From NCBI RefSeq assembly GCF_003732545.1, contig NZ_AYKF01000099.1, forward strand, positions 1 through 64,000: a stretch of DNA of 64,000 nucleotides, read 5' to 3'. The stretch comes from Salinisphaera orenii subsp. halophila YIM 95161 (GTDB taxonomy: Bacteria; Pseudomonadota; Gammaproteobacteria; Nevskiales; Salinisphaeraceae). How positions within the stretch are numbered: the first letter of the stretch is position 1; each line of letters starts with the position of its first letter. Below are positions 2,374 to 16,857 of the stretch, in pieces. The position numbers and the translations under genes were made by a program. Under the pieces are notes generated by a model. It was not told the origin of the DNA. It did not search any database and saw nothing but the letters and a program-made list of their open reading frames with translations.

Positions 2374-2853
2374 ATGACGCCCGTAACCGATCTCTGCGAC
2401 GAGTTCAGCGACAAGCTGCAGATCCTCGACCCGATCTTCACCGACTTCGGCGGCGCGCTGGACTTCGCCGGCCCGGTCAGCACCATCAAGTGCTTCGAGG
2501 ACAATTCGCTCGTGCGCGCCGCCCTCGAGGAGCCCGGGGAGGGCCGGGTGCTGGTCGTCGACGGCGGCGGCTCCGAGCGCTGTGCGCTGCTCGGCGACAA
2601 CCTCGCGCAGCTGGCGATCGACAACGAATGGGCGGGTATCCTGGTCTATGGCTGCATCCGCGATTCCGCCGATATTTCGCAGATGGGCGTGGCGGTGAAG
2701 GCGCTGAACGCGCACCCGAAGAAGTCGTACAAGAAGAATCAGGGCGAGCGCGACGCGCCGATACGATTCGCCGGCGTGTCCTTCATGCCCGGCGACTGGA
2801 TCTACGCCGATCTGGACGGCGTGGTCGTGTCCGAATCGGAGCTCTCGCTCTGA
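2374..2853 (+). CDS. rraA: RraA family protein (RNase E regulator / 4-hydroxy-4-methyl-2-oxoglutarate aldolase)
   Basis: A 159-residue RraA-fold protein, close to the family's usual length. The family motifs are clear: [18 protein letters not shown] near residue 65, then [20 protein letters not shown], then the C-terminal [15 protein letters not shown]. The Arg and Asp of GCIRDSAD are the positions that bind the metal and oxo-acid in the aldolases. Many gammaproteobacterial members are called RraA by homology but keep aldolase residues, so the cellular role (RNase E inhibition or oxaloacetate/HMG cleavage) cannot be fixed. AGGAG lies about 10 nt before the ATG. It starts 25 nt after dsbB. Confidence 0.88.
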
Positions 2854-2970
2854 ACGATTCGATGGCCGGCGTTTCCGTCAAATCAGCCGCACAGGACGGT
2901 TAGTTGCAGTGAGGGCGAAGGCCATCGCGCGCCGGCCTCGGGGCACGGTCGGGCCGCAGCCCGCCGCCGT

Positions 2971-3630
2971 GTGACCTTGGGGGCGCCGCCCGAGCCGCCG
3001 TCGGACTGCGGCCGCTGCCCGCGGCTGGTGGCGTTGCGCGAGCGCGTGCGTCGGGACCACCCGGACCACCATGCCGCGCCCGTGCCCGGCTTCGGCCCGG
3101 GGGACGCGGCACTGCTGATCGTCGGCCTCGCACCGGGTCTGCACGGTGCGAATGCGAGCGGACGGCCGTTCACCGGCGATGGCGCCGGCGATCTGTTGTA
3201 CCCGGCTTTGCACGCGCATGGCTTCGCGTCGGCGCCGTGCTCGCGCGGGCCCGGCGACGGCCTGACGCTGCGCGACTGTCGGCTGACCAACGCGGTGCGG
3301 TGTCTGCCGCCGGGCAATCGCCCGGTCGCGGCCGAGATCAATCAGTGCAACCACTTTCTGGCCGCGGAGATGCGGCGCCCGCGGGTGCTGCTCGCGCTTG
3401 GCGGTCTGGCACACAAGGCGGTGATCCGGGCGCTGGAGCTGCGCCAGGCGAGTCATCCCTTCGGCCATGCCGCCGAACACTCGCTGCCGGGTGAACGCGT
3501 ACTGCTCGACTCCTATCATTGCAGCCGCTACAACACGAATACCGGCCGACTCACGCCGGCGATGTTCGCGGCCGTGTTCGCGCGGGCACGGCAACTGGTC
3601 GACGGACAGGGCTTGCCCGCGGATCGATAG
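2971..3630 (+). CDS. Family 5 uracil-DNA glycosylase (UdgB-like)
   Basis: A 219-residue Fe-S uracil-DNA glycosylase that removes uracil from DNA to start base excision repair. Motif A is GLAPGLHGANASGRPFTGD near residues 52-70. The second motif is DSYHCSRYNTNTGRL near residue 180, where the family normally has SYHPSR. Four cysteines suited to a [4Fe-4S] cluster are at 13, 16, 111 and 126. The start is a GTG at 2971. It lies 17 nt before uvrC, so two repair genes are adjacent and probably co-transcribed. Family 5 enzymes use a different catalytic residue from Ung and often accept hypoxanthine as well. Confidence 0.9.
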   Translation: MTLGAPPEPPSDCGRCPRLVALRERVRRDHPDHHAAPVPGFGPGDAALLIVGLAPGLHGANASGRPFTGDGAGDLLYPALHAHGFASAPCSRGPGDGLTLRDCRLTNAVRCLPPGNRPVAAEINQCNHFLAAEMRRPRVLLALGGLAHKAVIRALELRQASHPFGHAAEHSLPGERVLLDSYHCSRYNTNTGRLTPAMFAAVFARARQLVDGQGLPADR

Positions 3631-3646
3631 ACGCCATCATGCACGC

Positions 3647-5473
3647 ATGACCACGGACACCGGTTTCGACCCCAATCGCTATGTGCGCCAGCTGACCCAG
3701 CGGCCCGGCGTGTATCGCATGTACGACGCCGAGGGCACCGTGCTCTACGTCGGCAAGGCGAAGAACCTCAAGAAGCGCGTTTCCAGCTATTTTCTCCGCG
3801 CCTCCGGCAACGCCAAGACCGAGTCGATGCTCGATCAGGTGGCCGATATCGAGGTCACCATCACGCATACCGAGGACGAGGCGCTGCTGCTGGAGTCGAC
3901 GCTGATCAAGCGGCATCGACCGCGCTACAACGTCTATCTCAGGGACGACAAGAGCTATCCCTATCTGCTGATCACCGGCGACAACGATTTTCCGCGGGTG
4001 GTCTATCATCGCGGCGCACAGAAGCGCGAAGGGCACTACTTCGGGCCGTTCCCCAGTTCCGGTGCCGTGCGCCAGACGCAGGACACGCTCATGCGGCTGT
4101 TCAAGCTGCGCAACTGCCGCGACAGCTTCTTCGAGAATCGCACGCGGCCGTGTCTGCAGTATCAGATCAAGCGCTGTACCGCGCCCTGTGTCGGCTACAT
4201 CAGCCAGGAAGACTATGCCCGGGATGTGCGGGATGCGGTCGAGCTGCTGCAAGGGCGCAACGAAAAGCTGATCGATCGGCTGGTCGGTGACATGGAGGCC
4301 GCGAGCGCGGCGCTCGATTTCGAGACCGCCGCCCATCTGCGCGAGAAGATCGCGGCGCTGCGCCGACTGCAGTCCCAGAGCCAGACGGTCGGCGGGCAGG
4401 GCGATTTCGACATCCTCTGTGCGGCCATCGACGGCGGCGTGGCGGCGGTCGTCGTGGTTACGGTGCGCGGCGGCATCAATCTGGGCCACCGCAGCTTCTT
4501 CCCGAACGCGCCGGCCGGAACCGAGGTGGCGGACATGATGGCCGCCTTCGTCAGCCAGTATTATCTCGACCGGCGACCGCCGCCGGAACTGCTGATCGAC
4601 CCCTTGCCGAGCGACGATGCCTGGCTCGCCGAAAGCCTGTCGCAGCGCGCCGGCCGCAAGGTCGCGTTCAAGCCCCGGGTGCGCGGCGAGCGCCGCCGCT
4701 GGCTGGACAACACGCGCGCGACGCTCGAGCAGACGCTGTCCGCGCAGCTGGCGAGCCGCGCGGGCGTGGAGAAGCGTCTTGCGGCCCTGGCCGACGCCCT
4801 CGGGCTGGAAACACCGCCCATGCAGATGGCCTGCTTCGACATCAGCCATACGCGCGGCGAACGGGCCGTGGCCTCCTGCGTGGTCTTCGAGGGCGGGGCG
4901 CCGAACAAGTCCGCCTATCGGCGCTTCAACATCGACGGCATCGAGCCCGGCGACGACTATGCGGCGATGCGGCAGGCACTGACGCGACGCTTCAAGCGGG
5001 TCAGGAGCGGCGAGGCGCCGTTGCCGGATCTGCTGCTGATCGACGGCGGTAAAGGGCAGCTCGCCGTGGCCCGGGAGACGCTGGCAGAGCTCGGAATCGA
5101 GGGCGTGCAGCTGCTCGGCGTCGCCAAGGGGGCGACGCGCAAGCCCGGTCTGGAACAGCTGTTTTTGCCGGGCGACAACGCCCCTCTTATACTGCCGGCG
5201 GACTCTCCGGCACTGCATCTCATCCAGCAGATCCGTGACGAGGCGCATCGTTTCGCGATCGCCGCGCACCGCGGCCAGCGGGGCAAGGCGCGCAGCGGCT
5301 CGATGCTCGATGACGTGGAGGGCCTGGGACCGAAGCGCCGCAAGAAACTGCTGCAGACATTCGGCGGCCCGCGGCAGGTTGCGCGGGCCGGTGTGGCGGA
5401 ACTCGCACGCGTGGACGGGATCAGTGCGAGAATGGCCCAGCGTATCTACGATCATTTTCACGACACGGCCTGA
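3647..5473 (+). CDS. uvrC: Excinuclease ABC subunit C
   Basis: A 608-residue UvrC, full length for the family, making both incisions in nucleotide excision repair. The N-terminal GIY-YIG nuclease is seen as PGVYRMYDAEGTVLYVGKA near residues 18-37. It is followed by the cysteine cluster (RPCLQYQIKRCTAPCVG), the UVR helix, the RNase H-like second nuclease domain (CFDISHTRGE and LLIDGGKGQL) and a C-terminal helix-hairpin-helix (VEGLGPKRRKKLL). The ATG at 3647 is chosen over the frame's first Met at 3467 because it begins just before the GIY-YIG domain. pgsA follows after 33 nt, as in many relatives. Confidence 0.97.
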   Translation: MTTDTGFDPNRYVRQLTQRPGVYRMYDAEGTVLYVGKAKNLKKRVSSYFLRASGNAKTESMLDQVADIEVTITHTEDEALLLESTLIKRHRPRYNVYLRDDKSYPYLLITGDNDFPRVVYHRGAQKREGHYFGPFPSSGAVRQTQDTLMRLFKLRNCRDSFFENRTRPCLQYQIKRCTAPCVGYISQEDYARDVRDAVELLQGRNEKLIDRLVGDMEAASAALDFETAAHLREKIAALRRLQSQSQTVGGQGDFDILCAAIDGGVAAVVVVTVRGGINLGHRSFFPNAPAGTEVADMMAAFVSQYYLDRRPPPELLIDPLPSDDAWLAESLSQRAGRKVAFKPRVRGERRRWLDNTRATLEQTLSAQLASRAGVEKRLAALADALGLETPPMQMACFDISHTRGERAVASCVVFEGGAPNKSAYRRFNIDGIEPGDDYAAMRQALTRRFKRVRSGEAPLPDLLLIDGGKGQLAVARETLAELGIEGVQLLGVAKGATRKPGLEQLFLPGDNAPLILPADSPALHLIQQIRDEAHRFAIAAHRGQRGKARSGSMLDDVEGLGPKRRKKLLQTFGGPRQVARAGVAELARVDGISARMAQRIYDHFHDTA

Positions 5474-5506
5474 CGCAGGGTCGTTACGGGCCCCGAGGAG
5501 ACGCTC

Positions 5507-6058
5507 TTGAACCTCCCGATCTGGCTGACGCTCTTCCGGCTCGTGCTGATCCCGTTCGTCGTCGGGCTGATGTTCGTACCCATGTCCGGGTTCAACATCG
5601 CCGCGGCGATCCTGTTCGGTGTCGCCCTGGCGACGGACTGGCTGGACGGCCATCTGGCCCGGCGCTGGAACCAGACGTCCGCCTTCGGCGCGTTCCTCGA
5701 CCCGGTGGCGGACAAACTCATCGTGTGCGCCGTGCTGGTCATCCTGGTGTATCGAGATCCGCACTATTACGTGGCGTTGCCCGCCGCGGTCACCGTCGGG
5801 CGCGAACTGACCGTGTCGGCGCTGCGCGAATGGATGGCCGAACTCGGCGAACGCGGCGTGGTGGCGGTCGGTTCGCTGGGCAAATACAAGACCGCGATCC
5901 AGATGGCCGCGATCTTCTGCATGCTGTTCCAGCTGACCGAGCAGGGGATCGTCTACGGCGTCGGCGTCGTGTTGCTGGTGATCTCCGCCGCGCTGACGAT
6001 CTGCTCCATGATCGAGTATCTGCGCCAGGCCTGGCCGCGTCTGAGCATGGAGCGATAA
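5507..6058 (+). CDS. pgsA: CDP-diacylglycerol-glycerol-3-phosphate 3-phosphatidyltransferase
   Basis: A 183-residue integral membrane enzyme that makes phosphatidylglycerophosphate, the committed step to phosphatidylglycerol and cardiolipin. The CDP-alcohol phosphotransferase signature runs from DWLDGHLARR to GAFLDPVADK (DGxxAR...GxxxDxxxD) with its four metal-binding aspartates. The start is TTG at 5507, supported by GAGGAG at 5495-5500 and the family-standard MNLPIWLTLFRL N-terminus. It sits between uvrC and a tRNA cluster, a common gammaproteobacterial order. Confidence 0.95.
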   Translation: MNLPIWLTLFRLVLIPFVVGLMFVPMSGFNIAAAILFGVALATDWLDGHLARRWNQTSAFGAFLDPVADKLIVCAVLVILVYRDPHYYVALPAAVTVGRELTVSALREWMAELGERGVVAVGSLGKYKTAIQMAAIFCMLFQLTEQGIVYGVGVVLLVISAALTICSMIEYLRQAWPRLSMER

Positions 6059-6085
6059 TCGATCAATACCAGCGTGGAAAATGGG

Positions 6086-6113
6086 TTGACACCCATCGCG
6101 CTGTGCCTACAAT
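6086..6113 (+). promoter_or_regulatory. Sigma-70 promoter of the tRNA-Gly gene
   Basis: A perfect -35 box TTGACA (6086-6091) and a near-perfect -10 box TACAAT (6108-6113) are 16 nt apart, 15 nt before the tRNA. It is one of the best promoter matches in the window. It presumably drives tRNA-Gly and perhaps the tRNAs beyond the hairpin at 6220. Confidence 0.8.
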
Positions 6114-6128
6114 ACGCACTCTCGATGA

Positions 6129-6203
6129 GCGGGAATAGCTCAGTGGTAGAGCACAACCTTGCCAAGGTTGGGGTCGCGAGTTCGAATCTCGTTTCCCGCT
6201 CCA
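6129..6203 (+). tRNA. tRNA-Gly (GCC)
   Basis: A 75-nt cloverleaf. The acceptor GCGGGAA pairs with TTCCCGC, with discriminator T and an encoded CCA. The anticodon loop holds GCC (CTTGCCAAG), and the T-loop has GGTTCGAAT-type sequence. It is first in a cluster Gly-Cys-Leu after pgsA, the usual glyW-cysT-leuZ order. Confidence 0.97.
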
Positions 6204-6219
6204 ACTGAACAAGCCGAAA

Positions 6220-6245
6220 CCTCGGCCGAACGGTCGGGGTTTTTC
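6220..6245 (+). terminator. Intrinsic terminator-like hairpin between tRNA-Gly and tRNA-Cys
   Basis: The stem CCTCGGCC (6220-6227) pairs with GGTCGGGG (6232-6239, two G-U pairs) across a GAAC loop and is followed by TTTTTTC. It lies inside the tRNA cluster, so it could separate tRNA-Gly from the two following tRNAs or only reduce read-through. Confidence 0.65.
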
Positions 6246-6290
6246 TTTATCGGGGTCCGGCCGCTGCGCGCAAGCCGCCGGACCGTCGCC

Positions 6291-6364
6291 GGCCAGGTGG
6301 CAGAGTGGTGATGCAGCGGCCTGCAAAGCCGCGTACCTCGGTTCGATTCCGGGCCTGGCCTCCA
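6291..6364 (+). tRNA. tRNA-Cys (GCA)
   Basis: A 74-nt cloverleaf. The acceptor GGCCAGG pairs with CCTGGCC, with discriminator T and an encoded CCA. The anticodon GCA lies in CCTGCAAAG. It is the second tRNA of the cluster after pgsA. Confidence 0.97.
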
Positions 6365-6428
6365 TCCCCGTTGCTCGTCCCGCAGTGCCCCGTCGCGGTC
6401 GGATGAACTGCTAGAATCCGGCGCTCGC

Positions 6429-6515
6429 GCCCGGATGGCGAAATGGGTAGACGCATGGGACTTAAAATCCCTTGGCCGCAAGGCCGTGCCGGTTCGAGTC
6501 CGGCTCCGGGCACCA
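6429..6515 (+). tRNA. tRNA-Leu (TAA), integration target of element 1
   Basis: An 87-nt class II tRNA. The acceptor GCCCGGA pairs with TCCGGGC, with the long variable arm CTTGGCCGCAAGG, anticodon TAA and an encoded CCA. A -10-like TAGAAT lies at 6412-6417. The last 58 nt are duplicated at 16799-16856, the mark of site-specific integration at the tRNA 3' half. This left copy keeps the whole tRNA, so it should still be functional. Confidence 0.97.
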
Positions 6516-6516
6516 T
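6458..6516 (+). repeat. attL of element 1 (59-bp direct repeat)
   Basis: Identical over 59 bp to 16799-16857. It runs from the anticodon stem of tRNA-Leu(TAA) through the CCA plus one T. The mismatch at each side (G against C before, A against C after) fixes the ends. The integrase gene begins 88 nt further on. Confidence 0.93.
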
Positions 6517-6560
6517 AAAATCAGTAACTTACGAAATTTAGCTTGTTGAACGTTGTTGGC

Positions 6561-6583
6561 CGTGGGACACTCATGGGACAACA
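6561..6583 (+). repeat. Left arm repeat of element 1 (paired TGGGACA heptamers)
   Basis: A 23-bp sequence identical to 16685-16707 near the other end. It contains two direct heptamers TGGGACA (6563-6569 and 6574-6580) with an 11-bp period. The position between att and the integrase gene fits integrase arm-type binding sites. A further inverted pair, TGTCCCG and CGGGACA (6627-6643), lies inside the 5' end of the integrase gene, which suggests autoregulation (inference). Confidence 0.6.
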
Positions 6584-6604
6584 ATAGCCAACAGGTGACA
6601 GTAA

Positions 6605-7675
6605 GTGGCAACGATCACACGGCGCGTGTCCCGCGACGGGACAGTGAGTTATCAGGCCAAGGTGCGAGTGCAAGGCGAGAAGCAGCGGTCTCGCACGTTC
6701 AAGCGCAAGACGGACGCGAAGCTCTGGGCGTCCAAAACCGAAACCGATCTAGGGCACGGCGCATACGTCCCCACAACGGCAGACCGCCGGCGCACGCTTG
6801 CCGAGGTTATCGACGCCTACAAATCCGATTACCTGCCGTATAAGACCCACAACAAAGACGCGACCAAACAGACCGCCATGCTCGGCTGGTGGCGGGACAA
6901 CGCGGGACACGTCACGCTCGACAAGCTGACCCCGCAGACTATTGCGAGCTTCCGCGCCGACCTCGCGAAACGAAAGAACAAGCGCGGCGAGCCAATCAGC
7001 GGCCCGACGCAAAACCGCTATCTGGCCGCGCTGTCGGCGGTCTGCAAGTGGGCCTGGCGCGAACAGGGCTGGCTGCAATCCAACCCCGTCTTGAGCGTCA
7101 CAAAGCGCGCCGAGAACACGAGTGCCGGCCGCTGCCTGTCGGATGCCGAGCGGCGGACGCTGCTGCGCGCCTGTCGCGACGATCACGATCCGAACATCTA
7201 TACCGCCGTCATGCTCGCGCTGGCGACCGGCTGTCGCTACTCGAATATCCGCTACCTGCAATGGCGCGACGTGGACCTGGACGACTGGACGTTCAAGCTC
7301 GCCGCGACCAAGAACGGCGACGCCCGCACCGTGCCGATTGTCGGAGACGCGCAGAGCGCCATGCAGGCGCAATATGACGCCGACCCGACCGGCGAGGGCT
7401 GGGTATTCAAGGGCCAGCGTGACAACGCCCCCGCGACGCTGCACACCGCTTGGCAGCGCGTTCGGGAAAAGGCCGGGCTGCCCGACTTCCGGTTCCATGA
7501 TCTGCGCCACAGCGTCGGCTCTTATCTGACCATGAACGGCGCGACACTGGCCGAAGTCGCCGAGGCGCTAGGGCACCGCACCCTGGTCATGGCGCGGCGC
7601 TATACGCACCTTACAGGCGAGCACACGCGCGGCGTGCTGGAGCGCGGGGTCAGGCTGGGCGCGGATGATGAGTAA
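6605..7675 (+). CDS. int: Tyrosine integrase of element 1
   Basis: A 356-residue tyrosine recombinase starting at GTG 6605. An N-terminal arm-binding/SAM-like region (residues 1-150) precedes the catalytic domain. Visible active-site residues are R211 (ATGCRYSN), H298 and R301 (HDLRHS), H324 (LGHRT) and the nucleophile Y333 (ARRYTH). It should integrate and excise the element at the tRNA-Leu(TAA) 3' end. Its first bases contain heptamers like those flanking att. The stop overlaps the next ORF's start by 11 nt. Confidence 0.95.
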   Translation: MATITRRVSRDGTVSYQAKVRVQGEKQRSRTFKRKTDAKLWASKTETDLGHGAYVPTTADRRRTLAEVIDAYKSDYLPYKTHNKDATKQTAMLGWWRDNAGHVTLDKLTPQTIASFRADLAKRKNKRGEPISGPTQNRYLAALSAVCKWAWREQGWLQSNPVLSVTKRAENTSAGRCLSDAERRTLLRACRDDHDPNIYTAVMLALATGCRYSNIRYLQWRDVDLDDWTFKLAATKNGDARTVPIVGDAQSAMQAQYDADPTGEGWVFKGQRDNAPATLHTAWQRVREKAGLPDFRFHDLRHSVGSYLTMNGATLAEVAEALGHRTLVMARRYTHLTGEHTRGVLERGVRLGADDE

Positions 7676-8102
7676 ACACATCACGCTCGATTGCACAACG
7701 CGCGACGAAGAAAAGCACGCGAAGATAGTTCAGTCACAGCGCGAGTACGTGCGAAAAATCGCCGACGTGCTGGATCGTGGCGATTCACTCGATATGTTGG
7801 ACGACCCGAAGTTGGCGGGCGAGGTTGCGGCCGCCATACTCCGCGCGTGGGCTGACAACGTATCGGACAAGCCAAAACGCAAACGCGGACGCCCTGCGTA
7901 CAAACTGAATCCGTTTAACGTCGCAATCGAGCATGAATTACTCAAAGCGCGGAAAGGGATGAGCGACAACGCGGCGAACGAGAACCTTGCCGAGAAACAC
8001 GACGTTTCCGTTGAAGCAATCCGTGAGGCGATTAAAAAGAAGGGCGCTGACGCCCGATCCTTCCTTGAGTTTTTCGAGATGCCAAGAAAACCGGCCGAAT
8101 AG
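7665..8102 (+). CDS. Small HTH-like protein, possible element regulator
   Basis: A 145-residue protein with no family I recognise. A basic KPKRKRGRPAYK segment near residue 70 resembles an AT-hook. A C-terminal segment, NENLAEKHDVSVEAIREAIK, has the shape of a helix-turn-helix. It overlaps the integrase stop by 11 nt and is followed directly by a 21-bp perfect palindrome, so a repressor or recombination-control role is possible. That is inference only. A small terminase is a less likely alternative because of its place next to the integrase. Confidence 0.6.
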   Translation: MMSKHITLDCTTRDEEKHAKIVQSQREYVRKIADVLDRGDSLDMLDDPKLAGEVAAAILRAWADNVSDKPKRKRGRPAYKLNPFNVAIEHELLKARKGMSDNAANENLAEKHDVSVEAIREAIKKKGADARSFLEFFEMPRKPAE

Positions 8103-8107
8103 TTCCC

Positions 8108-8128
8108 AAGTAATTCTTAGAATTACTT
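8108..8128. promoter_or_regulatory. 21-bp perfect palindrome, candidate operator
   Basis: AAGTAATTCT - T - AGAATTACTT is a perfect inverted repeat with a single central base. It lies between the 145-residue ORF and the AlpA-like gene, in a locally AT-rich stretch. The arms have no GC-rich stem and no T-run follows, so an operator is more likely than a terminator. A second short repeat (CTAG ... CTAG) follows at 8130-8146. Confidence 0.6.
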
Positions 8129-8203
8129 CCTAGAGGCATTTTCTAGCTTTCCGCAATCTTTGTCTTGCACGGCCAATAAGGGCCGAAACAGTGAGGCAAA
8201 GTT

Positions 8204-8410
8204 ATGGGACGCAATCTACAGACCGTTGCGCAATTCGCTAACGGCACGCCATTCACCGAAGGACAAATCCGCTGGTGGATATTCAACTCTGCCAACAACG
8301 GCATGGACGATGCCGGGGTTATCTTACGTGTTGGCCGGCGCGTTTATCTCGACCCTGACAGATTTTTCGGAGTTTGGGTTGCTCGCCAGAATCGCGAGGG
8401 CGCGGCGTGA
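8204..8410 (+). CDS. AlpA / excisionase-like DNA-binding protein
   Basis: A 68-residue protein with the compact winged-helix pattern of AlpA/Xis-type regulators: FTEGQIRWWIFNSANNG, then VILRVGRRVYLDPDRFFGVW. In satellites and P4-like elements such proteins activate excision and replication genes. It is the first gene after the 21-bp palindrome and starts a tight run of overlapping genes. The family call rests on the pattern, not on a search. Confidence 0.65.
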   Translation: MGRNLQTVAQFANGTPFTEGQIRWWIFNSANNGMDDAGVILRVGRRVYLDPDRFFGVWVARQNREGAA

Positions 8411-8592
8411 TCGGCCGCACCTTCTACATGGTCGCCGAGGTCGAGCACGCCGACGACGGCCGCGTACTGCCGAAACGGTACGTATCCGGGCCGTATGGCG
8501 AATACCTGCTCGCGAAACAGGTTAGCGCCGAGCTGGGCGACGGCTACCACGTGTTCCAGGCGACCGACTTCGACGACGAGGTGCAGTCGTGA
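8407..8592 (+). CDS. Hypothetical 61-residue protein of element 1
   Basis: It starts at GTG 8407, overlapping the previous stop by 4 nt (GTGA), and ends by overlapping the next GTG in the same way. The coupling at both ends supports a real gene with this start rather than the longer frame from 8374. The product is acidic, IGRTFYMVAEVEHADDGR onward, with no cysteine cluster or membrane segment. I do not recognise a family. Confidence 0.55.
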   Translation: MIGRTFYMVAEVEHADDGRVLPKRYVSGPYGEYLLAKQVSAELGDGYHVFQATDFDDEVQS

Positions 8593-9485
8593 GCGTATCA
8601 GCGATTAATCAGGCCCGCCCGGTAAAACGCAAACGGCGCACCAAGGCGCAGGTCGAGCAACTAGAAAAACAGATATATGACGTGCTGAAGGATGACCATC
8701 CACAATCGGTACGTCACGTGTTTTACCGGATGACTGACCCGAGGCTAGATGAGCCGGTCGAGAAGTCAGAGCGTGGGTATAACCATGTTCAAGATCGCAT
8801 GACCAAGATGCGACGCGCCGGCACATTGCCGTATGGCTGGATCACGGACTCGACGCGGCGCGGACACTTCACCTACACGTACCGCGACACCGCCGACTTT
8901 GTCCGGTCGGTCAAAGGGCTGTATCGCGGCGATCTGTGGATGCACGCCGATCATTACGTCGAAGTGTGGTGTGAATCGCGATCAATCGCGGGCGTGATCG
9001 AAAACACATGCCGCGAACTAGCCGTCAGTCTCTACCCGGCGGGCGGATTCACGAGCCTGTCATTCGCTCACGAGGCCGCGCAGTTCATCAGGGATGATGC
9101 ACGCGGCCGGCCGGCGGAAATCATTTACATCGGCGACTTCGATCCGGCCGGCGTCACCATCGACAAATCCATCGAGACCGAACTGCGGCTGCATGTTGGT
9201 GATGAGGTCGATCTGAATTTTCACCGCATCGCGATCAACGAAGATCAGATTGCTGAATACGACTTGCCGACCAAACCAAGGAAGAAATCGGACAAGCGCG
9301 TCCTGCATCTCAAGGAGACCGTCGAAGCGGAGGCCCTGCCCGCATACATCATGCGCGACATGCTGCGCGATGCCGTCGAGCAGTTTCTGCCGCAAGGCGC
9401 GCTGCACGCAACGAAAGTTGCTGAAATCGAAGAATCGCGTTTTCTCGACGATCTTGCCTGCCGTCTTGATCGCGGGCTGGTATGA
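8589..9485 (+). CDS. Toprim protein with Spo11 / topoisomerase VI-A-like architecture
   Basis: A 298-residue protein starting at GTG 8589. An N-terminal winged-helix-like part carries SVRHVFYRMTD, where Y46 occupies the place of the catalytic tyrosine in the RDxFY-type motif of Spo11/TopoVI-A. A Toprim fold follows: E125/E129 in YVEVWCES and the DxD pair D183/D185 in YIGDFDPAG. Both halves needed for a metal-dependent tyrosine DNA-cleaving enzyme are therefore visible. No B (ATPase) subunit is encoded nearby, which recalls the Mini-A proteins described from mobile elements. Probable role: replication or DNA processing of the satellite (inference). Confidence 0.7.
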   Translation: MSVSAINQARPVKRKRRTKAQVEQLEKQIYDVLKDDHPQSVRHVFYRMTDPRLDEPVEKSERGYNHVQDRMTKMRRAGTLPYGWITDSTRRGHFTYTYRDTADFVRSVKGLYRGDLWMHADHYVEVWCESRSIAGVIENTCRELAVSLYPAGGFTSLSFAHEAAQFIRDDARGRPAEIIYIGDFDPAGVTIDKSIETELRLHVGDEVDLNFHRIAINEDQIAEYDLPTKPRKKSDKRVLHLKETVEAEALPAYIMRDMLRDAVEQFLPQGALHATKVAEIEESRFLDDLACRLDRGLV

Positions 9486-9508
9486 ATCGTCCGATGCACT
9501 TCGATTAG

Positions 9509-10612
9509 ATGCCGCCCGAGCTGATGGCGCGTGCCAACTGGCTTTTATGGCGACGGGAGAAGAAGGGCAAGGTGCCGTATCAGGCCGATGAGCCGCGCCG
9601 GCGGGCCAAGAGCACCGACCCTGCGACCTGGGCCTCGTTCGACGCCACACGCGCCGCCTACAAGCCACAGCGTGATGCGGGCGTCGGCTTTGCTCTGGAT
9701 GGCGACGGTCTGGCTGTCATCGACATCGACGGCGATACCCGCGAGCAGGCTATCGACCTGCTGCACGACACCGGCTGTCGGTACATCGAGGCCAGCCCGT
9801 CCGGCAACGGACTACACGGCTGGGGCTTGTTCGATGGCGAGCTGCCCCGGAAGCAAGGCATCCACGACGGTATCAGCGTCGAGATATACAACTCGGCGCG
9901 ATATATGAGCGTTACCGGAAACGTCATCAACGCCGGGCGCTTCAAAGAGCTGCACTCGCTGCATGAACTGTCGGCCTCGCTAAAAAGAGCTACCGCTACA
10001 CAGAGCACACAAGAGACTCAAGAAACTCAGGAAGCACAAGAGACTCAAGTCAGGGGTGGCGTTGTGCCCATTGGCGATGAAGCTCTAAAACGGTTTTTAC
10101 CGCCAACGGTCGGCACTCGAAACAAATACCTGTTTGCGCTCGCACGCCACCTGAAAGCACAAGTTCCTGATGCGAGCCGAGCCGATCTTCGCGGCATCAT
10201 CAAGGACTGGCACAGGCTCGCGTTGCCAACAATCGGCACGCAAGACTTCACCGAATCGTGGGGCGACTTCATTCGTGGATGGGATGCCGTGCGCTGTCCC
10301 GAAGGTGAGCTGCTGGCCGAGCTACTCAAGGGCGTTGACGACGATCTGCTACCCGATGGCGTGCCAGATGACTACGGGCCGAAGTCACTGCGCCTGGTGA
10401 AGATATGCCAACGGCTTCAACATCATGCTGGAAATGAGCCTTTCTTCATTAGTGCGCGGACAACCGGCGACCTGCTAGGCATCCACTACACCAACGCCGC
10501 GAACATGCTGCGCGCCTTGATGGCCGACGAAGTAATCGAGCTTATACAGCGAGGCACGCGAAAGGATGGGCAGGCCAGCCAGTACCGGCTTGTAGCAGGC
10601 GCGGCGCACTGA
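9509..10612 (+). CDS. Primase-polymerase (AEP-type) replication protein
   Basis: A 367-residue protein with an archaeo-eukaryotic primase / Prim-Pol N-terminal domain. Visible active-site features are D72 and D74 (AVIDIDGD), H103 in SPSGNGLHGWG, and E125 with the SARYMSVTG strand. A linker of repeated ETQ units (residues 165-180) leads to a C-terminal helical/winged-helix part ending in TRKDGQASQYRLV. No helicase motif is present, so a host or helper helicase would be needed. Its stop overlaps the HNH start (TGATG). It probably primes satellite replication. Confidence 0.8.
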   Translation: MPPELMARANWLLWRREKKGKVPYQADEPRRRAKSTDPATWASFDATRAAYKPQRDAGVGFALDGDGLAVIDIDGDTREQAIDLLHDTGCRYIEASPSGNGLHGWGLFDGELPRKQGIHDGISVEIYNSARYMSVTGNVINAGRFKELHSLHELSASLKRATATQSTQETQETQEAQETQVRGGVVPIGDEALKRFLPPTVGTRNKYLFALARHLKAQVPDASRADLRGIIKDWHRLALPTIGTQDFTESWGDFIRGWDAVRCPEGELLAELLKGVDDDLLPDGVPDDYGPKSLRLVKICQRLQHHAGNEPFFISARTTGDLLGIHYTNAANMLRALMADEVIELIQRGTRKDGQASQYRLVAGAAH

Positions 10613-10902
10613 TGGCCGCCTGGCCGTACAACACACAGCAATGGCAACGCCTACGCCGGCTCAAGCTAAGCGACGAACCGTTGTGTGAACGATGCCGAGC
10701 ACGCGATCGAGTGAAGCCCGCCAAGGCCGTTGACCATCGTGTCGCGATCAGCGCCGGGGGCGATCCATTCCCGACGCTGGACGCGCTGGCCTCGTTGTGT
10801 ACGTCGTGCCACAGCATCAAGACCGCCGAAGACGAGGGCCGCGCCCGACCGACTATCGACCCGGCGACGGGCCGGCCGTTCGGCTCAAGCGAGTGGTGGT
10901 AG
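10612..10902 (+). CDS. HNH endonuclease
   Basis: A 96-residue HNH nuclease with a zinc ribbon. C25 and C28 (CERC), the catalytic D41-H42 (AVDHRVAI) and C63, C66, H67 (CTSCHS) are all present. In HK97-type systems an HNH protein is encoded beside the terminase and is needed for cos cleavage. The place just before the large terminase gives it that role here. It overlaps the primase stop by one base. Confidence 0.9.
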   Translation: MAAWPYNTQQWQRLRRLKLSDEPLCERCRARDRVKPAKAVDHRVAISAGGDPFPTLDALASLCTSCHSIKTAEDEGRARPTIDPATGRPFGSSEWW

Positions 10903-10984
10903 GCGTAACATGCTGAATATGCGAAATAAAATCGCTCAGGGCTGGTGGCTGAGTATCGCCCGTCCACCTATTTTTATAGTTAGT

Positions 10985-10998
10985 TTAGCCAAGGCTAA
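10985..10998. promoter_or_regulatory. Inverted repeat before the terminase gene
   Basis: TTAGCC - AA - GGCTAA lies in the 112-nt gap between the HNH and terminase genes, followed by an AGGAG ribosome site at 11003. The gap is the only real space within the packaging gene block and is AT-rich. It may hold an operator or attenuator for the late genes. No ORF for a small terminase fits here. Confidence 0.4.
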
Positions 10999-11014
10999 GT
11001 TTTAGGAGCCCAAC

Positions 11015-12640
11015 ATGGGACGACGAGGACCGGGCGCATCGGGCGCCGCCGAGCGTGACCCGAGTCAATTTGTCGATCTGACCGACGCCGCCGACTGGCG
11101 CGAGGATGGCATCGACCGGGCCGAAGCGGTGATTCGTTTCGTCGAGCAGTTGCCGATCACGGCGGGCGTGCTGGCAGGCGAGCGTATGCGCTTGCGCGAC
11201 TGGCAGCGCGAGATCGTGCGCAGCATCTATGCCACCGACGACGACAACCGCCGTATCAAGCGCTCGGCTCTAATTACACTGCCGAGAAAGAACGGGAAGA
11301 CCCAAGTATGCGCCGCGCTCGCCCTGGCGCATCTATGCGGACCAGAGGCCGAAAGCCGAGGCCAGATTATCTCCGCCGCCGCCGACCGCGAGCAGGCCGC
11401 GATCATCTTCGAGGAAATGCGCGCCATGATCGAGCGACACCCGGAGCTGACCGACCGCTGCAATATCCGTAGCTTCAACAAGCTGATCGAGGATGACGTG
11501 AGCGGCTCGACCTACCGGGCGCTCTCGGCGGATGCGCGAACGAAACATGGTCTGAACGCATCATTCGTTATTTATGACGAACTGGCGCAGGCACCGAACC
11601 GCAATCTCTATGACGTGCTGGCGACCAGTACGGCCGCCCGTGCCGAACCGTTGTTCGTGACGATCAGTACGCAATCGCCCGACCCGAATCACGTTCTGTC
11701 GGAGTTGGTGGCCTACGGCCGCAAGGTGCTCGACGGCAGCGTGGACGATCCGACCTTTCACGCCACGATCTATGCCGCGCCGGATGATGCCGACTGGCTG
11801 GATGAGAACGTCTGGCACGCCTGCAACCCGGCGCTGGGCGACTTCCGATCATTGGAGGAAATGCGCGTCGCCGCCCGACAGGCGCAGCACATCCCGGCGC
11901 GTGAATCATCATTCAGGGCGCTGTATCTGAACCAACCCGTCGAAGCCGATCACCGCTTCATCGCCGCCGCCGATTGGGATGGATGCCGCGACGAGATCGT
12001 TGTCGAAGCGCTCAAGGGCCGTCAGTGCGTCGCAGGGCTCGATCTGTCCGCAACCCGCGACCTGACCGCCCTGGTGCTGTACTTCCCCGACAGCGGCGCT
12101 GTGGTCCCGTATTTCTGGGCACCCGGCGAACGGATGGACGTGCGCGAGGAGACCGACCGCGTACCGTATCGCACCTGGCAGCGGCAAGGCTTGATCGAGG
12201 CCGCCGGCGAGCGGGCGATCGACAAGCGGGCTGTGGCGCTACGCATCGGCCAGATTGCGCAAGACTTCGATCTAACCGGCCTCGCCTTCGATCGCTGGGG
12301 CTTCGACGAGCTGAACCGGATTCTCGACGAGGAGGGCATCGACGGATTGCCGCTGGTCGAGTTTGGGCAGGGCTTCAAGGATATGTCACCGGCTGTCAGT
12401 GCCTTGGAGCGGGCCGTATTGCAACGAACCCTGATTCACGACGGCAACCCATGCCTGGCCTGGAATATGAGCAACATCGCAATCGACGAAGACCCCTCCG
12501 GCAACCGCAAGATCACGAAATCGAAAAGCCGCGACAAGGTAGACGGCGCAGTAGCGCTTGCGATGGCGGTCGGTCTGGCCGCGAAAATGCAGCCGGCACA
12601 GGAATATGACTTCGACCGCGATCTAGTGCTGGAAATATGA
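11015..12640 (+). CDS. terL: Terminase large subunit (HK97 type)
   Basis: A 541-residue packaging motor and nuclease. The Walker A variant PRKNGKT (residues 90-96), Walker B VIYDE (185-189), and nuclease-domain acidic residues in GLDLSATRD (D343) and near the C-terminal RDKVDGAVALAMA are all visible, and the length is normal. It should cut and pump element DNA into the element-encoded capsid. An AGGAG site precedes the ATG. No small terminase gene is recognisable in the element. Confidence 0.95.
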   Translation: MGRRGPGASGAAERDPSQFVDLTDAADWREDGIDRAEAVIRFVEQLPITAGVLAGERMRLRDWQREIVRSIYATDDDNRRIKRSALITLPRKNGKTQVCAALALAHLCGPEAESRGQIISAAADREQAAIIFEEMRAMIERHPELTDRCNIRSFNKLIEDDVSGSTYRALSADARTKHGLNASFVIYDELAQAPNRNLYDVLATSTAARAEPLFVTISTQSPDPNHVLSELVAYGRKVLDGSVDDPTFHATIYAAPDDADWLDENVWHACNPALGDFRSLEEMRVAARQAQHIPARESSFRALYLNQPVEADHRFIAAADWDGCRDEIVVEALKGRQCVAGLDLSATRDLTALVLYFPDSGAVVPYFWAPGERMDVREETDRVPYRTWQRQGLIEAAGERAIDKRAVALRIGQIAQDFDLTGLAFDRWGFDELNRILDEEGIDGLPLVEFGQGFKDMSPAVSALERAVLQRTLIHDGNPCLAWNMSNIAIDEDPSGNRKITKSKSRDKVDGAVALAMAVGLAAKMQPAQEYDFDRDLVLEI

Positions 12641-12684
12641 GGTTTACTCTCGCGCTCGCATATGCTACGTGATAACATTGCAAT

Positions 12685-12694
12685 TGTACGTACA
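12685..12694. promoter_or_regulatory. Palindrome in the spacer before the major capsid gene
   Basis: TGTACGTACA is a 10-bp perfect palindrome within the 74-nt spacer between terL and the capsid gene. The spacer is AT-rich compared with its neighbours. It may be an operator or part of a separate capsid promoter, but no clear -35/-10 pair is seen. Confidence 0.35.
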
Positions 12695-12714
12695 TACACA
12701 CGACGAGAAAGACC

Positions 12715-13956
12715 ATGCCCAATATCCGCGATCTGCGCGAACAGCGCGCCCATACCGTCGAGGCCATGCGCGCCTTGTCCGACAAGCCCGCCGGCGACAA
12801 CGGCGACCTGAGCACCGAACAGGCCGACAAGTTCGATGAACTGCGCGCCGACAACGAACGCATCGAGAAAGCGATCGAGCGACAGGCCGCGCTGGACGAC
12901 GCCGAACGCCGGATGAGTGGCGCGACCGTCACCGGGCCTGAATCCCGCGACTACGCGCAGCTCGCCGAACGTGTGTCGATCGTGAAGGCGATTCGCGGCC
13001 AGATGCAGGGCGGCGCAGACGGCGCGGAGCTGGAATACTCCCGCGAGGCCGAACGGCGCAGCGGCCGAACGGCTCAAGGCTTGTTCATCCCGATGGCGAA
13101 GTTCGAGACTCGCACGACCACGACGGGCAATGCCGGCGAGCTGGTCGGCACCGATCACATGGGCAGCCAGTACATCGGCGCGCTGCGCAACAATCTGGTG
13201 GCGCGGCGCATGGGCGTTCGCATCATGTCCGGTCTTCAGGGCGATGTTGAGATCCCGAAGTTCAAGTCGGGCACGACCGCCGGATGGGTTGCCGAGGATT
13301 CGCCCGTACCCAGCGCAGATATGACGTTCGGCAGCGTCACCTTGAGCCCGAAGACCGCCGGCGGCATGTCGGAAATGTCGCGCAATCTGCTGCTGCAATC
13401 CTCGCCTGACATCGAGACGCTGGTTCGCGATGACCTGGGCTTCATGCTCGCCAAGATCATCGACGCCGCGATCATCAACGGCGGGGGCACCAATGAGCCG
13501 ACCGGCGTTCTGAGCGCATCGGGCACGCAGTCGGGCAGCCTGGCGACACCGAGCTTTCAGGAAGTACTCGCCATGATCCAACTCGGCGAGGAGGCCAACG
13601 TCAACCCGAATAGCTGGCTGATGAGCCCGGCGGCCAAGGCCGTGCTGGCCGGCACGGAAAAAACCGCACAGACCGGCGAGTATCTGCTGACCGGCGGCAC
13701 GCTGGCCGGTATCGGCGCGACCAGCACGAATCAGGTTCCCGAGGCCGGCGAAGGGCTGGCGAACGTGATTCTCGGCGACTGGAGTCAGATGTTGCTCGGC
13801 GTTTGGTCCGAAGCCGATCTGCTGGTCAATCCCTACGAATCCGACGCCTACGCACGCGGCGCGGTCAAAGTGCGCGTTATGTCCACGCTCGACACCGCGA
13901 TCCGGCACGCCGAGGCATTCATCATCGCCAACGATCTGGGCACGGGCGCGGTTTAA
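12715..13956 (+). CDS. Major capsid protein (HK97 fold)
   Basis: A 413-residue HK97-type capsid protein. The first ~100 residues are a charged helical delta/scaffold region (IRDLREQRAHTVEAMRAL onward) expected to be cut off by the protease. The rest has family landmarks: LLLQSSPDIETLVRDDLGFM, the AAIINGGGTNEPTGVL loop and the SWLMSPAAKAVL segment. It precedes the protease and portal, opposite to the usual portal-protease-capsid order of HK97. The protease start overlaps its stop by one base. Confidence 0.94.
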   Translation: MPNIRDLREQRAHTVEAMRALSDKPAGDNGDLSTEQADKFDELRADNERIEKAIERQAALDDAERRMSGATVTGPESRDYAQLAERVSIVKAIRGQMQGGADGAELEYSREAERRSGRTAQGLFIPMAKFETRTTTTGNAGELVGTDHMGSQYIGALRNNLVARRMGVRIMSGLQGDVEIPKFKSGTTAGWVAEDSPVPSADMTFGSVTLSPKTAGGMSEMSRNLLLQSSPDIETLVRDDLGFMLAKIIDAAIINGGGTNEPTGVLSASGTQSGSLATPSFQEVLAMIQLGEEANVNPNSWLMSPAAKAVLAGTEKTAQTGEYLLTGGTLAGIGATSTNQVPEAGEGLANVILGDWSQMLLGVWSEADLLVNPYESDAYARGAVKVRVMSTLDTAIRHAEAFIIANDLGTGAV

Positions 13957-14462
13957 TGACCATCGAGACCCGCACCGTCACTGAGTACCGGGCGCAGGGG
14001 CGCACCCTGTCCGGCTACGCGGCGACGTTCGGCACCGAAGCCCGCATCGGCTCATTTAGTGAGTCGATCCGGGCCGGGGCCTTTAGCGACAGTCTGTCTA
14101 CCGGTCGAGATATTCTCGCGCTGGTCGATCATGATGCGACGCGCGTGCTGGGGCGTACCAAGACCGGCACCTTGAAGCTGGTCGAGGATGCACGCGGCTT
14201 GCAGTTCGAGATCGACGTACCCGACACCGCCGCCGGCCGCGACGTGCTGACGATGGCCGAACGCGGCGACCTGGGCGGCATGTCTTTCGGCTTCAACGTC
14301 ACCGATGAACATTGGACCGGCGAGCGGCGCGAGCTTCGAGCCGTCGATCTGCGCGAGATCAGCGTCGTGAACGCATGGCCCGCGTATGCCGGCACAAGCA
14401 TCGACGCACGGGCCGCACGGCCGCGCCTGGCAGGTTTGCAGCGCTATCTAAGGACGATCTAG
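13956..14462 (+). CDS. Prohead protease (HK97 family)
   Basis: A 168-residue capsid maturation protease. The ATG at 13956 overlaps the capsid stop (TAATG). Family landmarks are GYAATFGTEARIGSF, the catalytic His region ALVDHDATRVLGRT, and the Ser region LGGMSFGFN followed by LREISVVNAWPAY. It should remove the capsid delta domain during head assembly. A longer frame from 13803 exists, but its extra residues lie within the capsid gene. Confidence 0.92.
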   Translation: MTIETRTVTEYRAQGRTLSGYAATFGTEARIGSFSESIRAGAFSDSLSTGRDILALVDHDATRVLGRTKTGTLKLVEDARGLQFEIDVPDTAAGRDVLTMAERGDLGGMSFGFNVTDEHWTGERRELRAVDLREISVVNAWPAYAGTSIDARAARPRLAGLQRYLRTI

Positions 14463-14464
14463 CT

Positions 14465-15646
14465 ATGGGCCTACTGCGACGCATGGCCGACCGTTTCGAC
14501 CCGGAAACCCGCGAGGCCGATCCGTCATGGGATGCGGTCAAGCAAGATCGGGGTCTGAACGTCTACGCGGCACGCCAAGCCGAAAATCTATCGACCGTTC
14601 TGGCCTGCACACAGGCCATTAGCAGCGCGATCGCCAGCCTGCCCGCGTATGTCTACCGCCGGGGCGATAGCGGCCGCGAGGTGGACGCACAGCATCCCGT
14701 CATGCGCCTGATTCATCTCGGGCCGAACCCGCGCCAGAGCTGGCCCGACTTCATGGAATGGATCGTCGCGCAAACCCTGCTGCGCGGTAACGGGCTGGCC
14801 CAAATCATGCCGGATTCGATGGGGCGGGTTAATTCGTTGATCCCGATCCCGTGGGAAGACGTGAGCGTTCAGGTATTGCCGTCGGGCCGCCTGGCGTTCG
14901 ACGTGCACGACGGATACGGCTATCGGCGCCTGCTGCAAGACGAGGTGCTGCATCTCACCGATCGCACCGACGACGGCAAGATCGGGCGCAGCCGGCTCCA
15001 GCGGGCGCGTAGCGTCATCGGCGCGGGCCTTCAGGTGCAGGAATACGCCGAGTCCATGTTCGCGAATCAGGCCACGCCCAGCGGCGTTATCGAGGCCGAC
15101 GGCAAGATCAACAACGAACAACTGCAAAGTCTGAAAAGCCAGTTCGCCAAGGCATACAGCGGTTCGGCCAACGCTCGAAAGGCGATGATTCTCGACCAAG
15201 GGCTGCACTTCAAGCCGGTATCGGTATCGCCCGAAGATGCCGAGCTGCTGGCGTCCCGGCGCTTCACCGTCGAGGAAATCGCGCGCGTCTACAGCGTCCC
15301 GCCGCCGATCATCGGCGATCTAAGCCACGGCACGTTCACCAACTCCGAAACCGCCGGGCGCTGGTTCGCCATGCACACCCTGACGCCCTGGTTGCGCAAG
15401 ATCGAGGCGCAGATTGTGCGCAGCGTATTCAGCGAGCGCAGCCGCGCCACCCGCGAGTTTCAGTTCGATCTGTCCGGCTTTCTGCGCGGCGATCCTGAGC
15501 AGCGCTGGAACAGCCACAAGATCGCGGTCGATAGCGGCATCCTGACCGCCAACGAAGTCCGCGAGATCGAGGGTTACGAGCCGCGCCGCGACGGCGATCA
15601 ACTGGAAGTGAACGATGCTCGAAATCACGACACCGCCACAGTCTGA
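14465..15646 (+). CDS. Portal protein
   Basis: A 393-residue portal of the HK97 family, which forms the dodecameric DNA entry vertex. Landmarks are the N-terminal VLACTQAISSAIASLPAYVY, the FMEWIVAQTLLRGNGLAQI helix, the FTVEEIARVYSVPPPIIGD stem region and the HTLTPWLRKIEAQI crown segment. The ATG at 14465 is 2 nt after the protease stop. The upstream frame from 14312 only reads through the protease gene. It overlaps the connector gene by 32 nt. Confidence 0.94.
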   Translation: MGLLRRMADRFDPETREADPSWDAVKQDRGLNVYAARQAENLSTVLACTQAISSAIASLPAYVYRRGDSGREVDAQHPVMRLIHLGPNPRQSWPDFMEWIVAQTLLRGNGLAQIMPDSMGRVNSLIPIPWEDVSVQVLPSGRLAFDVHDGYGYRRLLQDEVLHLTDRTDDGKIGRSRLQRARSVIGAGLQVQEYAESMFANQATPSGVIEADGKINNEQLQSLKSQFAKAYSGSANARKAMILDQGLHFKPVSVSPEDAELLASRRFTVEEIARVYSVPPPIIGDLSHGTFTNSETAGRWFAMHTLTPWLRKIEAQIVRSVFSERSRATREFQFDLSGFLRGDPEQRWNSHKIAVDSGILTANEVREIEGYEPRRDGDQLEVNDARNHDTATV

Positions 15647-16142
15647 ACCGCTGTTGCTGGAAGAGGTGAAAGACCATCTCAGAATCGACACCGATGCGCA
15701 CGACACCCGCCTCGCCGCGCTGATTCAGGCCGCACGCAAACAGGCCGAACGCTACCTGGGCCGATCCATTGGCCGGCAGACGCTGGCGCTCGCGCTCGAC
15801 TATTTCCCCGACGAGATCGGGCTACCGCGCCCGCCCGTGGTGAGCGTGACTGAGATCGAATACACCGATCCCGAGGGCCTGCAAGAGACACTCGACCCAT
15901 CCCTGTATCGCCAGTCTGGCGCGCGCCTGGCACCGCTGAATCACTGGCCGCGTACGGCGCGTTTCCCCGGCGTGGTCCGCGTCACCTATGAGGCCGGCGT
16001 TTCCATGACGCCCGAACCGATCCGACAGGCGATGCTGGTTATGATCGAGCGCTTGTTCGATCGGCACGTCGAGCAGTACGACGACACCCTCGCGCGCCTG
16101 TCCGACATGCTGCTGTGGCCGTATCGGCAGGTTGCGGTATGA
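15615..16142 (+). CDS. Head-tail connector protein (HK97 gp6-like)
   Basis: A 175-residue gp6-type connector. The family begins with a EEVKDHLRID-type segment, seen here as LLLEEVKDHLRIDTDAHDTR. It is followed by LIQAARKQAERYLGRSI, and ends with a helix that caps the portal (RLSDMLLWPYRQ). It overlaps the portal 3' end by 32 nt and the next gene by 4 nt (ATGA), consistent with translational coupling. Confidence 0.88.
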   Translation: MLEITTPPQSEPLLLEEVKDHLRIDTDAHDTRLAALIQAARKQAERYLGRSIGRQTLALALDYFPDEIGLPRPPVVSVTEIEYTDPEGLQETLDPSLYRQSGARLAPLNHWPRTARFPGVVRVTYEAGVSMTPEPIRQAMLVMIERLFDRHVEQYDDTLARLSDMLLWPYRQVAV

Positions 16143-16456
16143 GAGCGGGCGAACTGACCGAACGCATTACCGTCGAGGCTAAGACGATCATTCGCGACGG
16201 CGGTGGCGGCTACTATGAGGAATGGGCACCGTTCGCAACACTACGGGCGAAGATCATTCATCAAAAAGGCGAGGAGAGCTTTGTCGCGGCGCGAACGCAG
16301 GCCAAGGTAACCGTTAAGTTCAAGACCCGCTTTCAACCCGGCATTACCCCGTCGCACCGCATTCAGTGGCGCGACAAGACGTTCGATATCTACGACGTGG
16401 ACGATACCCGCCGCCGGGATGATGAGTTATGGATCACGGCGACGGCTAAGAGCTAG
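16139..16456 (+). CDS. Head-tail adaptor / head closure protein (SPP1 gp16-like)
   Basis: A 105-residue head closure protein. Family features are the N-terminal MRAGELTERITVEAKT, the GGYYEEWAPFATLRAKI strands and the C-terminal HRIQWRDKTFDIYDVDD. The ATG at 16139 overlaps the connector stop. It is the last structural gene, so the encoded particle stops at the tail interface, as expected if a helper phage supplies tails. Confidence 0.87.
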   Translation: MRAGELTERITVEAKTIIRDGGGGYYEEWAPFATLRAKIIHQKGEESFVAARTQAKVTVKFKTRFQPGITPSHRIQWRDKTFDIYDVDDTRRRDDELWITATAKS

Positions 16457-16598
16457 ATTTTCTACCCTGGCCGCGAGGGCCGGCATAGCCGGAAACGTGG
16501 CGACGGTCTTAGTCGGATAGTCACCGTCTCATGCAAGCAACCCCGACGACTCGCAGCGCAAAACCGGCATCGGGCCGGACTCCTCGCGCGTGGTGAGC

Positions 16599-16630
16599 GC
16601 CCGTCACGCTTCGCGCTGGCGGGCTTTTTA
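16599..16630 (+). terminator. Terminator of the element 1 head gene operon
   Basis: GCCCGTCACGC pairs with GCGCTGGCGGGC across a short TTC loop (one bulge, one G-U) and is followed by TTTTTATT. It lies 143 nt after the adaptor stop and should stop transcription before attR and the ccm operon. Confidence 0.8.
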
Positions 16631-16684
16631 TTGGTATCCTATTGTCACTCAAACACGGTACTTCAGGGCGTTGTCCGCGTGTCC

Positions 16685-16707
16685 CGTGGGACACTCATGG
16701 GACAACA
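16685..16707 (+). repeat. Right arm repeat of element 1 (TGGGACA heptamers)
   Basis: Identical to 6561-6583 over 23 bp and in the same orientation. The two TGGGACA units have an 11-bp period. An extra inverted unit, TGTCCC, is directly upstream (16680-16685). It lies 92 nt from attR and is probably an integrase or Xis arm site. Confidence 0.6.
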
Positions 16708-16798
16708 GAGCCAAGAAAAGCCGTTAAGAGCCAATAAGACGAAAGCTATAAGTTGCTGTTTACAATAGCTTTCAATAGTTCTCAATGCCCGTAAATCC

Positions 16799-16857
16799 GG
16801 ACTTAAAATCCCTTGGCCGCAAGGCCGTGCCGGTTCGAGTCCGGCTCCGGGCACCAT
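16799..16857 (+). repeat. attR of element 1 (59-bp copy of the tRNA-Leu 3' end)
   Basis: A perfect copy of 6458-6516 including the anticodon loop, variable arm, T arm and CCA. It lacks the tRNA 5' half, so it is not a functional tRNA. It lies 36 nt before the ccmA start. Confidence 0.93.

Follow-up and report, generated by a model that had tools for sequence, protein, structure and literature searches.

The window analysed here, 64,000 nucleotides of contig NZ_AYKF01000099.1 from Salinisphaera orenii subsp. halophila YIM 95161, holds a 10,341-bp element that is very probably an intact integrated phage satellite making its own head and borrowing its tail. An initial annotation had described it as a capsid-forming phage-inducible chromosomal island (cf-PICI). 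We confirmed that the element, with its attachment (att) repeats in a tRNA-Leu(TAA) gene and its own head genes, is real. It contains 13 open reading frames (ORFs), all on the + strand, which cover 92% of its length.

The element is bounded by exact 59-bp direct repeats, as the initial annotation had claimed, with the attL core at 6458..6516 and the attR core, a tRNA fragment, at 16799..16857 (both + strand). The flanks are pgsA-tRNA-Gly-tRNA-Cys-tRNA-Leu(TAA) on one side and ccmA/ccmB on the other; the order pgsA-tRNA-Gly-tRNA-Cys-tRNA-Leu is that of E. coli and points to a gammaproteobacterial host, in whose assembly a search detected no 16S rRNA. Because the left repeat, which runs from the anticodon loop to the tRNA 3' end, is the 3' part of tRNA-Leu(TAA) (6429..6515, + strand; ARAGORN), the integration target remains whole after insertion. 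In genome G012, counterparts of the left flank (99.6% identity over 517 bp) and the right flank (98.8% over 743 bp) are directly joined with one att copy, indicating that this is an empty site, that the element boundaries are right, and that the insertion is genuine and exact. A single copy of the element is present in its own genome, and the insertion appears to be either recent or patchily inherited. Inside both ends lies an exact 24-bp repeat with two TGGGACA motifs (copy 1 at 6560..6583, copy 2 at 16684..16707, both + strand). Within the element this motif is confined to the two repeats (right-end copies at 16687 and 16698), which are candidate integrase arm sites.

Pfam and PHROG matches confirmed a full head set, all on the + strand. 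It begins with a 96-aa HNH endonuclease, a packaging accessory (10612..10902; PF01844, E=2e-7; phrog_2323), and a 541-aa terminase large subunit (TerL; 11015..12640; phrog_9, E=1.7e-142; PF20441 and PF03354). These are followed by an HK97-type major capsid protein of 413 aa (12715..13956; PF05065, E=2.7e-37), a 168-aa prohead protease of the peptidase S78 type (13956..14462; PF04586, E=2.9e-42), and a 393-aa portal protein (14465..15646; PF04860, E=9.3e-99; HK97 portal 8cez, E=8.9e-41). A 175-aa gp6-like head-tail connector (15615..16142; PF05135, E=3.8e-10; phrog_442) and a head completion/closure protein (16139..16456; PF05521, E=1.3e-25; phrog_25, head closure Hc1) complete the set. Among solved structures, the capsid best matched PDB 8gta (E=4.4e-31), presumably from a Dinoroseobacter siphophage, followed by the gene transfer agent of Rhodobacter capsulatus (RcGTA; E=1.1e-5). 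No tail, holin or endolysin gene was recognised among the 13 ORFs scanned, three small ones being without assignment, and the head genes stop at the tail interface, consistent with the initial annotation. Pfam and PHROG searches of these ORFs recognised no terminase small subunit (TerS), for which a diverged form is possible; the TerL profile match begins at residue 34, leaving no sign of a fused TerS.

The closest relatives found, with portals 43-63% identical to that of the element, are themselves small, at 8.6-13.7 kb. A portal search of IMG/VR yielded L046-L048 at 63%, and a search with a two-sequence portal alignment yielded 27 viral and 8 genome loci, the latter in Asticcacaulis, Magnetospirillum, Rubritepida, Roseomonas, Desulfovibrio, Phaeovulum, Rhodobacter, and Sulfitobacter. 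When viral contigs were scanned with one protein at a time, the portal and the capsid brought up relatives, and TerL and the TOPRIM protein described below gave none that was confirmed. The order capsid-protease-portal was found in all 31 loci holding the three genes, out of 32 mapped (in L076 across the circular junction), several of which are near-duplicates. Terminal repeats of 95-127 bp mark four contigs as circular (L046, L065, L072, L076), and six relatives are bounded by exact 18-50 bp repeats lying ∼9.3-10.7 kb apart. A tRNA stands beside the repeat in five of these six (Phe in L052, Ala in L053, Asn in L056 and L057, Leu(TAA) in L059, which thus shares its integration target with our element), and the sixth, L075, carries the tRNA-Asn repeat of L056 and L057. 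Together with the Salinisphaera element, these 11 bounded elements measure 9,922 ± 594 bp (range 8,600-10,679). The 10 bounded relatives have 74 ORFs outside the core set; tail or lysis families were absent from the 23 Pfam families that these matched (E≤1e-3) and from the best 25 of 77 PHROG families (1e-4). Against 50,697 GenBank phage records, the portal matched 1,777 records and TerL 2,136, with best identities among the matches listed of ∼31-36% and ∼39-41%, respectively; the capsid was 28-36% identical among the matches listed. Given that the near relatives are small tailless elements and that tailed-phage portals are far away (at most ∼36% among the matches listed), the element appears to be a dedicated tailless one and not the product of a recent prophage deletion.

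Several observations weigh against an intact head-making satellite. The element is known here from its sequence; its TerS was not found; and the host assembly contains no second TerL or head-closure gene, such that no resident HK97-like helper was seen. Twelve further, less well bounded loci were judged from the best 25 of 48 Pfam families (1e-4) in 108 non-core ORFs, and other tail genes are possible there. Clade member L071 encodes an 807-aa tape-measure protein (4508-6928; phrog_24, E=6.4e-33) directly after the portal, as well as a second protein (10539-11468) matching a 'virion structural protein' family. L071 keeps the capsid-protease-portal order and has an integrase, and no further tail gene was found among seven proteins scanned. 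The lack of a tail gene thus holds for the element and its bounded relatives and does not seem absolute for such satellites. As a side observation, the L071 tape-measure protein might set the length of a borrowed tail. The initial annotation had proposed that close relatives with tail and lysis genes would make the element a simple prophage deletion; no such relatives were found among the loci scanned, the L071 tape-measure gene being the one exception seen.

Some features would fit a remnant prophage whose tail and lysis genes were deleted: a tailed Rhizobium phage has a protease with up to 52% identity (among the matches listed), all head proteins are HK97-like, and the head block stops precisely at the interface with the tail. 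We consider such a remnant very unlikely, given that every gene is open, with tight spacing and 92% coding, that many other elements, circular contigs of 8.6-10 kb among them, have the tailless head set too, and that capsid-protease-portal reverses the portal-protease-capsid order annotated in six tailed phages. Phage portals are also distant, and the clade already largely refutes deletion. There is similarly little probability that the element, despite having its own TerL and portal, forms no separate heads, entering instead mixed capsids made with a helper or, as concatemers, helper-sized heads. Its capsid geometry is a prediction from size, and a precedent is described in PMC10803314, where PICMI satellites package concatemers into helper heads. 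However, the element has capsid, protease, and portal genes of its own, and genome sizes in the clade vary little, as a small head of fixed size would predict.

The relationships of the element were examined in portal and TerL trees. In a first portal tree (48 rows, bootstrap not fully settled), 25 of 26 satellite-labelled rows, including the element and excluding L049, formed a clade (100/100), and five enterobacterial cf-PICIs formed their own (100/100). In a second portal tree, nine portals from four host genomes were added, and PHAGE_heks, PRO_G300, PRO_G008, and PRO_G057 (long branches) and rows shorter than 290 aa were left out. The satellite clade, with the element, was again recovered (100/99), as was the enterobacterial cf-PICI clade (100/100), and L049 fell outside the satellite clade as in the first tree. 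In the TerL tree (31 rows, quick method, two rows shorter than 250 aa left out), ten satellite TerLs formed one clade with a Shimodaira-Hasegawa-like approximate likelihood ratio test (SH-aLRT) support of 96, which joined HK97 and two prophage-like rows at 99 and not the cf-PICIs. All clade TerLs with a complete start, including that of the element, begin with MG-RGP (two residues later in L079), and the phage TerLs listed differ. Since both the portal and the TerL clades are distinct, the nearest kin of the element are a lineage separate from enterobacterial cf-PICIs, with named members mostly from the Alphaproteobacteria. The initial annotation saw the element as extending the cf-PICIs of other gammaproteobacteria; in the portal and TerL trees it falls outside their clade. 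In the comparison of head genes with cf-PICIs and siphophages that had been recommended, cf-PICI portals were ∼34-35% identical to that of the element and phage portals at most ∼36% among the matches listed. Within the lineage, TerL was found in 4 of the 11 bounded elements (the element itself, L046, L052, and L059) and not in the other seven (L053, L056, L057, L065, L072, L075, L076), which must depend on another terminase, presumably that of a helper.

In the second portal tree, the satellite and cf-PICI clades grouped, apart from phages (95/88), with two portals from Sulfitobacter and Rhodobacter (L116 and L118), which have the portal-protease order and probably belong to gene transfer agents (GTAs). 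While this grouping and the capsid match to RcGTA would favour a GTA-like or domesticated head cluster packaging host DNA instead of its own, we regard this as highly improbable, given that the integrase, the att sites, a primase of its own, its patchy occurrence, and the unoccupied site in a near-identical genome mark a mobile element, and that the element is without the tail genes that GTAs possess.

A non-coding sequence of ∼58 bp between HNH and TerL (AAAATCGCTCAGGGCTG ... AGTTAGTT; 10928..10985, + strand), identified by comparison of relatives, is common to the element and eight relatives. It consists of AAAATC(G/T)CTC(A/G)G-GCTG, then 25-30 variable bases, then AGTTAGTT. A sequence-only model of the nine sites, run against 56 sources, recovered all nine training sequences and, outside the training set, matched L062, L053, L056, and weakly L075 (E 2.5e-5 to 0.016), with no match in phage, cf-PICI or prophage-like loci among these sources. 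In L056, a Rhodobacter element with capsid, protease, and portal in which no TerL was found, the matching sequence immediately precedes a TerS gene (6526-6930; phrog_83, E=2.5e-18). A DNA-only pattern scan of 2.9 million viral contigs returned 11 contigs, all of them clade members, eight of which were new (L063, L079, and L123 being already known or near-duplicates). In all 11, the first aligned base of TerL lies 60-153 bases past the site start and a protease and portal are present; a capsid was found in 10. Given that the sequence sits where HK97 has its cohesive-end (cos) site, in the order HNH, cos, terminase, we propose it as a candidate cos or packaging site, of which location and family specificity are observed. 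The assembled circle of L046 breaks inside the site, which might fit packaged molecules ending there. In HK97, a similar stretch 66 bp from the right end was the best of ∼10 kb examined (score 12 vs 11), and 500 mononucleotide shuffles of the final 330 bp all scored lower, while the site model found no HK97 match at E up to 5; the resemblance is suggestive only.

Capsid-forming satellites are established through the cf-PICIs, and the element would work alike, without a recognised TerS and outside the enterobacterial clade. As reference loci, identified here by gene content, we used L082 (vB_KppS-Ant), L083 (Arsenophonus), L084 (Klebsiella), L087 (Morganella), and L096 (E. coli). Like the element, Enterobacterales cf-PICIs have an integrase, a small regulator, a primase, the capsid-protease-portal order, connector, closure, HNH, and TerL, and no tail or lysis genes are listed for L083, L084, L087, or L096; L082 (16.5 kb) has a tape-measure gene after TerL (2036-4330; phrog_2854, E=2e-176). 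Of the features by which cf-PICIs are recognised, the element has its own capsid, protease, portal, connectors, TerL, and HNH, an integrase and att site, a primase, and no tail or lysis genes, whereas the published cf-PICI description in PMC10690885 includes both small and large terminase subunits and our Pfam and PHROG searches recognised no TerS. Enterobacterales cf-PICIs also differ in being ∼14-16.5 kb (16-16.5 kb for the references here; 14 kb on average according to PMC10803314) compared with ∼10 kb, in having HNH-TerS-TerL after the head genes, where the element has HNH-TerL before the capsid, and in their separate portal and TerL clades. The Streptomyces satellites MulchRoom and MiniFlayer likewise have their own terminase, portal, and capsid, but are described with virulent helpers, ∼1 kb terminal repeats, another head lineage, and no replicase reported in that account (PMC10690885). 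The Vibrio crassostreae satellite-plasmid cf-PISP resembles the element in being tailless and capsid-forming with HNH and terminases; unlike the element, it is described as episomal, with plasmid maintenance genes, 15.8 kb in size, and with a capsid that groups with gammaproteobacterial cf-PICIs (PMC13230959). HK97-like siphophages share homologous TerL, portal, capsid, protease, connector, and closure proteins and the HNH-cos-terminase layout, but are ∼40 kb, with tails, TerS, and the portal-protease-capsid order. Available accounts list cf-PICIs chiefly from Enterobacteriaceae, Morganellaceae, Pasteurella, and Firmicutes (PMC10803314) and describe three capsid clades (PMC11389934). Our literature search, with the two founding cf-PICI papers outside its reach, found no naming of alphaproteobacterial cf-PICIs, and a prior description is possible.

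In the proposed life cycle, entry or induction of a helper siphophage would trigger excision of the element, which might then replicate by its prim-pol and TOPRIM protein with a host helicase. HNH and TerL would cut and fill at the conserved site ahead of TerL, the capsid, protease, and portal would build a small head for ∼10 kb, and the connector and closure proteins would cap the filled head. Helper tails could then attach, and helper lysis would free chimeric particles. By an allometric model whose intervals are wide, T=3 heads would correspond to 11.78 kb and T=4 heads to 17.98 kb (PMC7762592); given that the element is nearer to the former size, ∼10 kb perhaps fits a T=3 head best. The text of PMC7762592 calls the absence of T=3 tailed phages puzzling and puts head diameters at ∼43 nm for T=3 and ∼50 nm for T=4. 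Taken further, with odds that we place slightly short of even, the relatives may be a separate, mainly alphaproteobacterial lineage of ∼10-kb capsid-forming satellites with their own packaging site and modular terminases (some have TerL and HNH and lack TerS, and at least one has TerS and lacks TerL), which build T=3 HK97-fold heads, an architecture described as missing in tailed phages, and which passed into a gammaproteobacterium, there with an integration-replication module of another kind. If true, this lineage, with named members in Asticcacaulis, Magnetospirillum, Roseomonas, Rhodobacter, and Sulfitobacter, would represent a further radiation of capsid-forming satellites, whose members the diagnostic DNA site would make easy to find. 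Capsid-forming satellites can join tails of unlike phages, by which DNA moves between species.

The remaining genes, also on the + strand, concern integration, regulation, and replication. The initial annotation had listed an integrase, an AlpA-like regulator, and a primase as the element's own. The integrase is a tyrosine integrase of 356 aa (6605..7675; PF00589, E=5.9e-28; phrog_1, E=3.6e-63), and the primase is a 367-aa prim-pol (9509..10612; phrog_1829, E=1.4e-28; PF09250 below cut-off at E=8e-4) with no helicase domain detected by Pfam and PHROG searches. The regulator is less secure: a 68-aa protein (8204..8410) is present, with relatives in L058 (31%) and L041 (47%), but it has no Pfam or PHROG family match, and its assignment as a possible excisionase or AlpA-type regulator comes from resemblance and the weak L058 relative. 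A 145-aa protein (7665..8102), possibly DNA-binding as suggested by its position, had no significant family match in profile searches, and a 61-aa hypothetical protein (8407..8592), whose ORF overlaps both neighbours, had no family match. The initial gene list left unnamed a 298-aa TOPRIM/topoisomerase-VI-A-like protein (8589..9485; phrog_6247, E=2.3e-45), which shows a weak TOPRIM-region match to TopoVI-A 1d3y (E=0.39), DUF2399 below cut-off, and a 59% identical relative in genome G059. The single weak match to defence families was JetD for this protein (E=0.0058). AlphaFold models made without alignments had mean confidence (pLDDT) of 48 for the 68-aa and 37 for the 298-aa protein, too poor for use.

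Locus L041 (1-8026, genome G111) encodes an integrase, small protein, and TOPRIM protein that are 43, 47, and 26% identical to those of the element. Since the left-half genes have other kin (L041, G059), the element seems to be a chimera in which an integration-replication module was joined to a head module. L041 also encodes an 889-aa protein and is perhaps a different island with the left module in common.

Three further observations concern other loci. Roseomonas genome G452 holds two portals of the clade and one phage-like portal (L117, L120, and L112), possibly a satellite-helper set. L058, the closest TerL relative, has imperfect ∼184-bp tandem repeats downstream of its portal (9971-10797). 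Finally, an Acinetobacter plasmid (L088, 8249-14129) carries capsid, protease, portal, HNH, TerS-like, TerL, connector, and closure genes and no tail genes.

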